Shown here: positions 19,346 through 22,628 of the stretch, piece after piece
Layout: each line of letters begins with the position of its first letter
Numbering within the stretch: position 1 is the stretch's first letter
DNA from: Nitrospinales bacterium
Lineage (GTDB): Bacteria > Nitrospinota_A > UBA7883 > JACRGQ01
Length of the DNA stretch: 44,304 bases
NCBI GenBank assembly: GCA_023248535.1
Contig: JAHFEJ010000007.1
Coordinates: 18,105 to 62,408, forward strand
Reading direction: 5' to 3'
The notes under the pieces: model-generated
Told to the model about the DNA's origin: nothing
What the model saw: the letters and a program-made list of their open reading frames with translations, nothing else
The model's database searches: none
Program-made: the position numbers and the translations under genes

Positions 19346-20128
19346 GTGCCGCTTTTCAACGACGAAGCGATAACCCTGCGCCATTTCGATTTCGGCGAAG
19401 CGGACCGCATCGTCAGTTTCTTCGGCAAAAAACATGGCAAGGTCCGCATCGTCGCCAAGGGGTGCCGCAAACTCAAAAGCCGGTTCGCCGGGCGGCTGGA
19501 ACCGTTCCACACCGTCGACATCGTCTATTTCGGCCGGGAACACGCCAGTCTCTTCAAGCTCTCCAGCGTGGACATGAAAGATATGCGCCCCGCCGCGGGG
19601 GAAGGATTGGAGCGTTACGGCCGCGCATGCTATGTGACCGAGTTGATGGAAGCGGGCCTGCGCGAGGGGGATCCGAACCCGAAGGCGTGGATGGCCGCCG
19701 AAGCGGCGCTTAACCTTCTCATGCGGGAAACACGCGTGGCGGAACTGGACTGGATCGTACGTTTTTTCGATGTAAAATTCTTAAGCCACATCGGCTACAC
19801 CCCCACGCTGGACCGCTGCGTGGTCTGCCGCGGATTGCTGCCGGAACTGCCACAGGCGCTGTTCGACGCCGAAAAAGGGGGTCTCACCTGCCCGCGCTGC
19901 AAGCATAAGAGCAACGGACTTATCCCCCTCTCGGCGGGGGCGGCCAAGTTTCTGGCCAGGATACTCACGACCACATTCGCCGACGCCGCGCGGCTGAAGC
20001 CGTCGCCTCAAATATTGGGCGAAATCGTCCGCTGCATCACCGCCTTCCGCAACCAGCGGCTGCATGCAAAATTTAATAGCGAAAAATTCTTTTCCCCCGC
20101 TAATATAGCGTATACGGGAGAACCATGA
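19346..20128 (+). CDS. recO: DNA repair protein RecO
   Basis: A 260-residue recombination mediator: N-terminal OB fold (about 1-80; GKVRIVAKGCRKLKSRFAGR) and a helical domain with a four-Cys zinc site (CVVC and CPRC in the 150-190 region). RecO helps RecR load RecA on SSB-coated single-stranded DNA. Starts at GTG 19346. The era-recO order is common. The last codons overlap the PII-like start (ATGA). Confidence 0.93.
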   Translation: MPLFNDEAITLRHFDFGEADRIVSFFGKKHGKVRIVAKGCRKLKSRFAGRLEPFHTVDIVYFGREHASLFKLSSVDMKDMRPAAGEGLERYGRACYVTELMEAGLREGDPNPKAWMAAEAALNLLMRETRVAELDWIVRFFDVKFLSHIGYTPTLDRCVVCRGLLPELPQALFDAEKGGLTCPRCKHKSNGLIPLSAGAAKFLARILTTTFADAARLKPSPQILGEIVRCITAFRNQRLHAKFNSEKFFSPANIAYTGEP

Positions 20129-20460
20129 AAAAGATACAGGCCATCATAAAGCCGCTTAAACTTGACGACGTGAAAGAAACGTTGAACGAGATAGGCATCG
20201 GCGGCCTGACCATCAGCGAAGTGAAAGGGGTGGGCAAACAGGCCGGCAAGGGAGGCCCCTTTGTAAGCGCTCCAACAACCGCAGGACTCCCCAAGGTCTG
20301 CCTTGAAATCATCGTCGAAGACGACCGGGTGGAAGAGGTTATCGCCGCCATTCTGCGGTCGGGAAGCGCCGGCCGCGTGGGGGACGGCAAAATATTCGTC
20401 ACCGGCCTGGATGATGTGATCCGCGTGCGCACCGGCGAACGCGGCTCCTCGGCGGTTTAG
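20125..20460 (+). CDS. PII-family signal protein with unusual T-loop
   Basis: A 111-residue protein of the GlnB/GlnK family. The core is well kept: MKKIQAIIKPLKLDDVKE at the start, GRVGDGKIFV and VIRVRTGE at the end (nucleotide-binding edges). The T-loop (about 36-55; GKQAGKGGPFVSAPTTAGLP) keeps Gln39 but has no Tyr at the usual uridylylation position (Tyr51) and is about one residue shorter than GlnB. It could not be modified by GlnD in the normal way, so it may sense only ATP/ADP/2-oxoglutarate or have other partners. Translational overlap with recO (ATGA); no glnA or amtB next to it. Confidence 0.88.
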   Translation: MKKIQAIIKPLKLDDVKETLNEIGIGGLTISEVKGVGKQAGKGGPFVSAPTTAGLPKVCLEIIVEDDRVEEVIAAILRSGSAGRVGDGKIFVTGLDDVIRVRTGERGSSAV

Positions 20461-20470
20461 CGGGTTCCCC

Positions 20471-21682
20471 CTACAAAGATATCTCCGGTATCGGCAAACC
20501 GTACCGCACGTGGGCCATGTAGTAGCGTTCAAACGCCTCTTTCATATAATGAAAGAGCGCTCCCTTTTTATGGATAAGGCGGTTGCGCGGCGGTTGGAGC
20601 GGACTGGCCCCCGCCAAAAAAGCGGTATCCCCGGCATCGGCGATGCAAATCACGCTGAAATCAATGCCGCGCGCTTTCGAGCCCCCCTGTATGTCGGCGG
20701 CGATGTTGTGCGCGGCCCGCATGGCCATAACCTCGGTCATCTGTCCCGTTTTCGGCACCCCCACCGGCACCGGCGTAGCCTCCTTCGGCGGGATGGCGAG
20801 CGAAACGCCAACCGCGTAGATATTCGGATAACGGGGGTTGGCCAGATATTCATCCGCCAAAAGGAACCCGCGCGGATTCGCCAATCCCTCTTCCCCCATA
20901 TATGCATGGCTGCCGTAAAACGCCGGGGTAATGAGGGAGAAATCGCAGGCGAGCCTTCTCCCCCCTTCCAGTTCCACATGATTCGGCGACACCCCGGCAA
21001 GGCGGGCGTTGGTGATGCATTCAATATCACGGTCGGCGAATTCATCCTCCAGCATCCGCCGCATCGCCCCAAACCCCCCAACGCCGAAATGCCCCGCGAA
21101 GGGTTCGTTGGTGAACAGGGAAATCAAAAATTTGCCGCGGAGTTTTTTCCGGCGCAGCATGGTATCGATTAAAAATGCCATCTCATACACCGGCCCCAGA
21201 CAGGAAGCTCCCTGCACATTTCCCAGCACGATGGAACCGCCGCCACGGGCACAAAGCCTCTCCAACGCACCCCGCACCGCCAGCGCCTGTTCCACCGTGA
21301 AGAGGGCGTGGCGCTGCCCGCCATCAGGCTCCAGCCCCGGAGCCGCCGCGAAATCCAGTTCAGAGCCGGTAGCCGCCACAAGATAGTCGTATTCATAAAC
21401 TCCGTTCTTCCCGATGGCGCGGCAGGCGGCCGGATCCAGCCGGGTGATGGTGTCTTGCGTATGGCGGATGCCCGCGCTCCACAACCGTGCCGCGACCGGA
21501 TGCTGAATGGCGGACGGCTCACGCCAACCGAGCGCCACCCACGGCAGGGATGGTATGAATGTAAAGAGGGGGTCGGCGGAAATGACGGTAATTTCGTGCG
21601 CGCCGCCCAGCAGTTTCCGCAGGCGCATCGCGGCGTTGAAACCGCCGAATGAGGAACCAAGAACCAGAATGCGCTTCCCCAT
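20471..21682 (-). CDS. FAD-dependent sulfide:quinone oxidoreductase-like protein
   Basis: A 403-residue flavoprotein with the NADH dehydrogenase-2/SQR fold: dinucleotide motif GSSFGGFNAA near the start, ATGSELD near 105 and a second FAD segment IYAVGVS near 300. ASCLGPVYE holds a Cys in the position typical of SQR proteins; I do not see a clear second redox Cys in the C-terminal third, so true sulfide oxidation is uncertain. The start is ATG 21682, overlapping the stop of the DsrE-like gene (TAATG). The two genes together suggest sulfur or persulfide metabolism. Confidence 0.82.
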   Translation of the reverse strand: MGKRILVLGSSFGGFNAAMRLRKLLGGAHEITVISADPLFTFIPSLPWVALGWREPSAIQHPVAARLWSAGIRHTQDTITRLDPAACRAIGKNGVYEYDYLVAATGSELDFAAAPGLEPDGGQRHALFTVEQALAVRGALERLCARGGGSIVLGNVQGASCLGPVYEMAFLIDTMLRRKKLRGKFLISLFTNEPFAGHFGVGGFGAMRRMLEDEFADRDIECITNARLAGVSPNHVELEGGRRLACDFSLITPAFYGSHAYMGEEGLANPRGFLLADEYLANPRYPNIYAVGVSLAIPPKEATPVPVGVPKTGQMTEVMAMRAAHNIAADIQGGSKARGIDFSVICIADAGDTAFLAGASPLQPPRNRLIHKKGALFHYMKEAFERYYMAHVRYGLPIPEISL

Positions 21683-22038
21683 TAGAACGTAACCACTTTG
21701 TCGGAAACCATCATCCAATCATACAGGATTTGCATGGAGCCGGGTCTCACGGACTCGATCATTTCCCCCGTGCCGATGCCACAGCGGTCGATGCATGTTT
21801 TGCAGTAGCGGATTTCCGCACCCGCCGCCGCCTCTTCCGCCAGCATCGCCGCGAGGTTGAAATAGCCCTTCGGCGGCTCAAGGCCGTTCCGCGCTGCGTC
21901 CACCCCGGCGTTAATGAGGAAGATGCGCGTTTGGCTTCCGTTTTCCCGCGCCGTTACGGCAAGCCGGATGGCGTTCCACGCCGCGTCCGAGCCGCCATAC
22001 GGGGCCGAACTTATGATGATGAGAAGCGATTTAGCCAT
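21682..22038 (-). CDS. DsrE/DsrF-like sulfur-relay protein
   Basis: A 118-residue DsrE-like protein (MAKSLLIIISSAPYGGSDAA). CKTCIDRCGI near residues 80-89 offers three Cys residues; one conserved Cys in this place is the sulfur carrier in DsrE/TusD-type proteins. ATG 22038 is chosen as start because GGGAGGGGG lies directly upstream; an earlier in-frame start adds seven residues. It precedes an SQR-like gene with overlapping stop and start. Confidence 0.85.
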   Translation of the reverse strand: MAKSLLIIISSAPYGGSDAAWNAIRLAVTARENGSQTRIFLINAGVDAARNGLEPPKGYFNLAAMLAEEAAAGAEIRYCKTCIDRCGIGTGEMIESVRPGSMQILYDWMMVSDKVVTF

Positions 22039-22093
22039 GGACCCCCTCCCTGCAAACAAACGCTAATTACCCGCGGACAACACTCACACATGA

Positions 22094-22123
22094 AAGATAA
22101 TATAGCTAACAATTAATTGTCAA
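22094..22123 (-). promoter_or_regulatory. promoter of the dsrE-like/SQR pair with palindrome
   Basis: On the minus strand TTGACA (22118-22123) and TATCTT (22094-22099) are 18 bases apart. A perfect 12-bp palindrome, ACAATTAATTGT (22109-22120), overlaps the -35. The long spacer is close to what MerR regulators use, and a MerR gene ends 38 bases upstream. Confidence 0.55.
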
Positions 22124-22160
22124 GTATTTCCGCGCCGCCCCAAACGGCGATCGATGCCGC

Positions 22161-22628
22161 CTACCGCTTTTTTCCGCCTTTTGCCGGCACGAAGCACTTG
22201 GGGCCGATATCCTTTCCCTGATGCATCCGCATGGCCCGGTTCTGCCGGTAGGTGAGACGGATGGGGCACCCTTGGCAGGTGCGGGCGTCCGCCTCGCCCG
22301 ACCCTTTGATCGCTTCCCAGCATTTTTGCCGGTAGTTGCCATACGCCGGACATGCCGGCTGGTTGCACTGCTTGATCTCCCAGCAGGGGGCCATCATGTA
22401 AAGCAGTTTGAGGCCGTTGATGGTCATCCCCACTTCGTCGAGATAAAACTTTATGTTCTTGATGAACTGGATATCATTGTTGGAATAGCGCCGCTGCCCA
22501 TTCACCCGCGCCGGTTGTATGAATCCGGCCTTCTCGTATTCTCGCAACATCCGCGGCGTCGTGTCGGTGAGGGTAGCCGCCACCGCCATGGCGTAAAGCG
22601 GTTTGGCGCTGTCAATGTCGATAGCCAT
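22161..22628 (-). CDS. MerR-family regulator with Cys-rich C-terminal domain
   Basis: A 155-residue protein. Residues 10-75 are a MerR helix-turn-helix with wing (TPRMLREYEKAGFIQPAR, NGQRRYSNNDI), close to HspR-like members. The C-terminal part has seven Cys (82, 88, 93, 103, 118, 121, 145), including two CWE motifs and CPAY/CQGCP, a pattern like the two-CW metal-binding domain. It may hold an Fe-S cluster or zinc and sense redox or sulfur state. Start chosen at 22628; 22646 is possible, and neither has a strong ribosome site. Likely regulates the adjacent dsrE-like/SQR pair (inference). Confidence 0.82.
   Translation of the reverse strand: MAIDIDSAKPLYAMAVAATLTDTTPRMLREYEKAGFIQPARVNGQRRYSNNDIQFIKNIKFYLDEVGMTINGLKLLYMMAPCWEIKQCNQPACPAYGNYRQKCWEAIKGSGEADARTCQGCPIRLTYRQNRAMRMHQGKDIGPKCFVPAKGGKKR

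Follow-up and report, generated by a model that had tools for sequence, protein, structure and literature searches.

A cysteine-rich, HspR-like MerR protein as a candidate local regulator of a dsrE-sqr gene pair in Nitrospinota

Results

Genes and features at the locus

The window analyzed here is a 44,304-nucleotide stretch of a contig from the genome of a Nitrospinales bacterium (G000; 2.87 Mb in 132 contigs). Three of its genes, merR, dsrE and sqr, lie co-directionally on the minus strand (Table 1), and the ATG of sqr overlaps the stop codon of dsrE (TAATG). An earlier note, made from the letters of the sequence, had described a MerR gene beside a DsrE-like/SQR-like pair, and this arrangement is borne out: all three genes lie where that note placed them and their Pfam domains agree. 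A gene for a PII-like (GlnB-type) protein is found at 20125-20460 on the plus strand, convergent with sqr; we take the usual tyrosine-containing T-loop of this protein to have been exchanged, as it appears, for QAGKGGPFVSAPTTAG.

Table 1. Features of the merR-dsrE-sqr locus, in window coordinates.
Feature	Position	Strand	Description
merR	22161..22628	-	155 aa: HspR-like winged HTH (residues 9-78) and Cys-rich CW domain (residues 82-145)
Cys-rich domain coding region of merR	22194..22385	-	C82, C88, C93, C103, C118, C121, C145
dsrE-like (YchN-type) gene	21682..22038	-	118 aa; CxxC = C79, C82
Sulfide:quinone reductase gene (sqr)	20471..21682	-	403 aa; redox Cys C161 and C346
Putative dsrE promoter TTGACA-18-TATCTT	22094..22123	-	18-bp reading kept in G004, G005 and G006
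Conserved element ACTTGACA-N6-TGT (ACTTGACAATTAATTGT)	22109..22125	-	35 nt past merR stop; overlaps the dsrE -35 box; sole exact match in G000
Perfect 12-bp palindrome ACAATTAATTGT	22109..22120		Inner part of the element; perfect in G000 only

The SQR and DsrE proteins

The sqr product (P0002) matches Pfam Pyr_redox_2 with 62 bits and gives full-length alignments with the SQRs of Aquifex aeolicus (PDB 3hyv, 283 bits) and Acidithiobacillus ferrooxidans (272 bits). Its two redox cysteines, which are invariant in 12 rows, align with cysteines that we take to be the redox-active pair of both reference enzymes; the position of the third A. aeolicus cysteine (presumably Cys124) is occupied by Phe128. 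With both redox cysteines present, P0002 is, as judged from the alignment, a genuine sulfide:quinone reductase.

The dsrE product (P0001) matches PF02635 with 63.4 bits and has E. coli YchN as its closest solved relative (96 bits). Its two CxxC cysteines are invariant across 17 rows, and the protein is assigned by these features to the DsrE-fold family with conserved, predicted sulfur-carrying cysteine. The CxxC is common to P0001 and the YchN/DsrE sulfur carriers (PDB 1jx7, 2hy5); it differs from them in its coupling to sqr via the overlapping stop and start codons, and the Nitrospinota subfamily differs in a third cysteine (C86). The SQR-like and DsrE-like labels of the earlier note were right: P0002 has both SQR redox cysteines, and P0001 has the CxxC of DsrE/YchN.

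The MerR protein and its cysteine-rich relatives

The merR product (P0003) matches MerR_1 (PF13411) over residues 12-74 with 42.4 bits (cut-off 21.6) and PF00376 with 32.8 bits (cut-off 28.2), and a MerR-type winged HTH at its N terminus is predicted from these profiles, which places it in the MerR superfamily. The best NCBIfam match of the HTH is HspR (53.6 bits, cut-off 105), a score that leaves the protein outside the HspR family itself, and the closest solved structure is that of GlnR. The SoxR model is matched by the HTH only, with 13.7 bits against a cut-off of 116.9, and the protein is not a SoxR; the cysteines of the SoxR 2Fe-2S cluster have a spacing unlike that seen here. Seven cysteines in CW and CP contexts follow the HTH, as had been noticed earlier. 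The cysteine domain starts 8 residues past the Pfam HTH match, and its low-confidence model (built from 6 sequences; pLDDT ~50-60 there) is without a long helix.

A search of contigs for merR orthologs returned six loci. Two lie outside Nitrospinota, one in a Spirochaetia metagenome-assembled genome (MAG; locus L013) and one in a Syntrophobacterales MAG (L014), and no further close orthologs were found in the phyla of these two; none were found on viral contigs, and plasmids gave HTH-level matches only. A profile built from the ortholog clade (A3, 7 rows) matched, at E 1e-20, proteins in up to 67 of 395 sampled genomes of Desulfobacterota, the phylum of L014, with some of these matches spanning little beyond the HTH. 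The Desulfobacterota homologs score at most ~120 bits with this profile, against 299 for the true ortholog. Thirty-seven proteins were aligned: the 7 A3 rows, 29 loci (L075-L103) and L074, a second, weaker match in the Spirochaetia genome (L072 and L073, duplicates of A3 rows, were left out). C82, C88 and C93 are retained in all 37, C118 and C121 in 36 and C103 in 35, a conservation that was partly selected for, because the search profile itself held these cysteines; C145 is present in 7 of the 37, all from the ortholog clade. When the stored flanks of L072-L103 were searched with tblastn, the window DsrE was matched solely behind the Spirochaetia ortholog (L073) and the window SQR was not found. 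Apparently, the cysteine-rich MerR proteins form a large, undescribed family that is found mostly in Desulfobacterota; the open-access papers searched contained no account of such a regulator. In the 14 loci listed, the Desulfobacterota homologs adjoin other genes, among them ones for multihaem cytochromes, MobA/MobB-like proteins and a radical SAM protein (names read from translations).

Linkage of merR, dsrE and sqr across Nitrospinota

Of 24 Nitrospinota genomes, 14 encode a close DsrE (at least 57% identity), and its gene lies directly before sqr in 13 of the 14, the exception being G018; to judge from gene order, dsrE-sqr is an old pair in the phylum. Full-length merR is present in five of the 24 (G000, G004, G005, G006 and G014); G008 has a shortened copy. 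The dsrE-sqr pair has an intact merR next to it in three genomes only, all of one genus (G000, G005 and G006), and in the other two with full-length merR the gene is unlinked to the pair. Conservation of the gene trio had been named in the earlier note as a check on its proposal. With adjacency in 3/24, a stable trio is not found and the trio is rejected as a conserved module; it is a local arrangement of one genus. In G004, merR is kept with a pilZ gene, and on a different contig dsrE-sqr is kept with a glnB-recO-era block, which places the break between merR and the dsrE promoter. Four small genes stand between pilZ and merR in this genome and different DNA lies right behind merR (L057:1951-4247), which suggests insertions on both sides. 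The truncated merR of G008 (L015:4234-4545) comprises the HTH part only and runs directly into dsrE, with the cysteine domain and the promoter element lost.

Genes for ArsR-rhodanese proteins lie close to dsrE in G014, G018 and G012 (in G012 with two genes between); in G010 such a gene adjoins an sqr without dsrE, and G000 also has an unlinked copy, on C55. Because either merR or an ArsR-rhodanese gene is found at that place and the dsrE-sqr pair is kept, the regulator beside the pair has, on this comparison of loci, changed hands, with the sulfur pair as the stable part. The ArsR-rhodanese fusions close to dsrE(-sqr) (L067:4009-4659, L069:2477-3133 and L064:8157-8831), some of whose promoters bear TTCAA/TTGAA-type repeats by eye, are candidates for a second sulfide switch.

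Orthologs in two other phyla

In the Spirochaetia locus, behind merR come a gene for a 4Fe-4S protein with a broken frame, a DsrE gene, a gene for a NifS-like cysteine desulfurase and one for an SQR-type flavoprotein, which scores 249 bits with the type III SQR model, under its cut-off of 525. Because the DsrE and SQR proteins encoded there are only ~34% and ~27% identical to those of the window, the association of merR with dsrE and sqr at this locus appears to have arisen with different family members. The shift of reading frame in the 4Fe-4S protein gene lies within L013:6557-7260, and before dsrE there is a fragment that, as we read it, looks like the end of a nucleoside phosphorylase. In the Syntrophobacterales locus, merR is followed by genes for a redoxin and an MMPL transporter, and neither dsrE nor sqr follows. 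An in-frame TGA, possibly encoding selenocysteine, interrupts the redox motif of the redoxin gene (L014:5142-5585; FWKSL-stop-GRC); no clear hairpin emerged when the RNA behind this codon was folded (z -0.38). The regulator gene stands before sulfide genes in two of the three lineages and before a thiol-redox gene in the third.

A conserved element behind merR

Alignment of the region 3' of merR revealed one conserved block, which is also present behind merR in the two far relatives, with the core ACTTGACA-N6-TGT. An exact search of nine genomes (G000, G004-G008, G014, G024 and G025) gave nine matches, five of which lie 20-35 nt past the merR stop codon on the merR strand. These five belong to G000, G005 and G006 and to the Spirochaetia and Syntrophobacterales MAGs (G024 and G025), which hold the only two merR orthologs found outside Nitrospinota. 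The sixth match is in the dsrE promoter of G007, a genome (82% complete) in which merR was detected neither by protein nor by profile. The remaining three are unlinked to merR or dsrE: two are inside coding sequence, and one lies immediately behind an unrelated open frame and ahead of what we take to be an isoleucyl-tRNA synthetase gene. G014 has its sole match inside an unrelated gene and no element beside its intact merR; the dsrE promoter of G004, where merR is on another contig, has the element with one changed base; and G008 gave no match in the exact search. With the pattern reversed as a control, these nine genomes yielded 13 matches, so the element is not enriched genome-wide, and its placement alone is unusual. 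A wider regulon was also considered and none was seen, with a single exact match in G000 and the unlinked matches near unrelated genes.

The merR DNA of the outside pair is only ~64% identical to that of the window's genus, and the flanks of the element agree between the Nitrospinota loci and L013/L014 at the level of chance (2-8 of 30 nt before it, 6-10 of 40 nt after it). With one or two matches per genome, the chance that one falls on the merR strand and no more than 60 nt from merR is estimated at ~1e-5 per genome. However, because TTGACA is the -35 consensus and the motif was picked after being seen, a fairer figure, which counts the five shared bases outside TTGACA, is ~1 in 1000 between two independent groups.

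Within the putative dsrE promoter, the element overlies the -35 box, and the dyad of the element (ACA-N6-TGT) is centered ~3 nt after that box. The best -10 boxes give spacers of 18 bp in G000, G004, G005 and G006, of 19 bp in L013 and L014 (the L013 box matching at only 4/6 positions) and of 16 bp in G007. A 15-bp reading with a better -10 box is possible in G000 (TATTAT, 5/6) and G005; between the two readings, the relatives preserve the 18-bp one better. Two sites of the TTGACA-18-TATCTT type were found in 2.6 kb where shuffled sequence would give 1.3, and the promoter pattern alone is no evidence because it is as frequent as in shuffles. The earlier note had drawn attention to a long 18-base spacer and a perfect palindrome. 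The promoter-like sequence is indeed present, but its spacer is not long, 18 bp being in the normal range; the palindrome is real but is not the conserved feature, which is ACTTGACA-N6-TGT. Perfect 12-bp palindromes number 19 in the window and arise by chance in ~2% of shuffled AT-rich 50-nt blocks, and the relatives keep four or five of the six pairs (Nitrospinota) or three or four of the six (the two outside loci); the perfect palindrome was rejected as the operator. A separate repeat was observed in G002 (e.g. L125-L132), where ~18 copies of a ~150-bp MITE-like element, eight of which were read, carry GTAGTGCCTCAGTTTGAAA... as terminal repeats and ATGACAANTANTTGTCAT as a central palindrome.

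Discussion

Gene order, domain content, the conserved cysteines and, across three phyla, the conserved position of the element were observed directly. We propose, with a probability of about one half, that the merR product is an HspR-like local regulator of dsrE-sqr that acts through predicted binding of the element at the dsrE -35 box. MerR control of the dsrE promoter is plausible because the element 3' of merR is conserved in three phyla. The recurrence of a DsrE gene and an SQR-type gene behind the Spirochaetia ortholog also favors this model, as does the retention of six of the seven cysteines in nearly all of the 37 aligned proteins. The MerR protein would bind TACTTGACA-N6-TGT and, since this site takes in the -35 box and the protein is HspR-like, repression would be the default state. 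Derepression would come about when the cysteine cluster is modified, or when it loses or gains a ligand; candidate signals are reactive sulfur, a thiol oxidant and a metal. SQR would then oxidize sulfide with quinone and, by analogy with its family, the DsrE/YchN-like protein may take up or pass on sulfane sulfur via a CxxC cysteine. Against this model stand the linkage of intact merR to dsrE-sqr in 3/24 genomes only, the small number of informative shared bases, the redoxin gene in place of dsrE or sqr behind the Syntrophobacterales ortholog, the elements kept in G007, where merR was not detected, and, with one changed base, in G004, where merR lies elsewhere, and the absence of the element beside the merR of G014. 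The regulatory switch envisaged in the earlier note, a sulfur- or redox-responsive one for persulfide handling, is partly supported: the cross-phylum element speaks for local control, sensing of sulfur or redox state by the cysteines is conjectural, and the cysteine-rich family mostly adjoins other genes in Desulfobacterota.

The persistence of the element in G007 would be expected if another factor, for example an ArsR-rhodanese protein, bound the element and controlled dsrE-sqr, or if dsrE-sqr were uncontrolled, with merR a neighbor by history. The element of G004, with merR elsewhere, also favors this explanation, as do the ArsR-rhodanese genes near dsrE in three genomes and the unlinked copy in the window genome. 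However, it leaves the element behind merR in two other phyla, ahead of different downstream genes, unexplained, and the regions upstream of the dsrE genes that lie beside ArsR-rhodanese genes bear, by eye, different repeats; we consider it unlikely, though it is the strongest of the alternatives.

Less likely again is a classical MerR activator, which would untwist an over-long spacer of 18 bp here and 19 bp in the two outside loci. Classical MerR promoters have a spacer of 19-20 bp with the dyad within it. The constancy of the 18-bp spacer in four genomes of the genus, the 19 bp of L013 and L014 and the 16 bp of G007, where merR was not detected, are all consistent with such a mechanism. Nevertheless, the genus has a spacer of ordinary length and a dyad over the -35 box instead of mid-spacer, the -10 box that defines the spacer is poor in L013 and has a better competitor at 15 bp in G000 and G005, and the cysteine domain follows the HTH almost at once, without a long dimerization helix in the low-confidence model. 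On promoter geometry, an HspR-like repressor is slightly favored over a spacer-twisting activator. Finally, that the element is a mere strong vegetative promoter for constitutive dsrE-sqr expression, its palindrome and spacing having no regulatory meaning, is improbable: the perfect -35 consensus within it and the commonness of such palindromes and promoter-like sites would suit this explanation, but the AC before TTGACA and the TGT six bases after it are common across phyla where the -10 boxes and all flanks differ, and a 19-base run identical between G006 and G007 ends, by eye, right after TGT.

Comparison with known systems

In PMC6102357, the operator of HspR, HAIR, is given as CTTGAGT-N7-ACTCAAG. 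The element shares with HAIR the CTTGA of its left half, and the site overlaps the promoter; the right half-site is not HAIR-like and the cysteine-rich domain lies outside the part of the protein matched by the HspR profile. No heat-shock genes were seen beside merR in the frames read. Two CW motifs and further cysteines are common to the window protein and the two-CW domain NF045718, but the protein scores 16.9 bits with that model (cut-off 35), matched from the second CW on, and falls outside it; three of six Desulfobacterota homologs scanned gave weak, near full-length alignments, all below the cut-off. More tentatively, the domain with six or seven cysteines and CW motifs may mark a large class of MerR regulators, HspR-like and so far undescribed, whose signal would be reactive sulfur, a metal or the redox state; the clade of the window would then be the first case of a MerR-family protein switching sulfide oxidation, spread over three phyla with its operator just after its own gene. 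We hold this broader reading to be possible but doubtful. A function found for the window regulator would help to annotate a broad cysteine-rich family in anaerobes.

SqrR, CstR and FisR are regulators of the ArsR, CsoR and sigma-54 types, respectively. All three are named as sulfane-sulfur sensors in PMC11211675, which names direct sensors of the ArsR, CsoR, MarR, OxyR and FisR kinds. The window regulator would share with SqrR, CstR and FisR the same kind of target gene and differs from them in being, by sequence, of the MerR type. A MerR-family regulator of sqr would, if confirmed, add a separate solution to the known sulfane-sulfur sensors.
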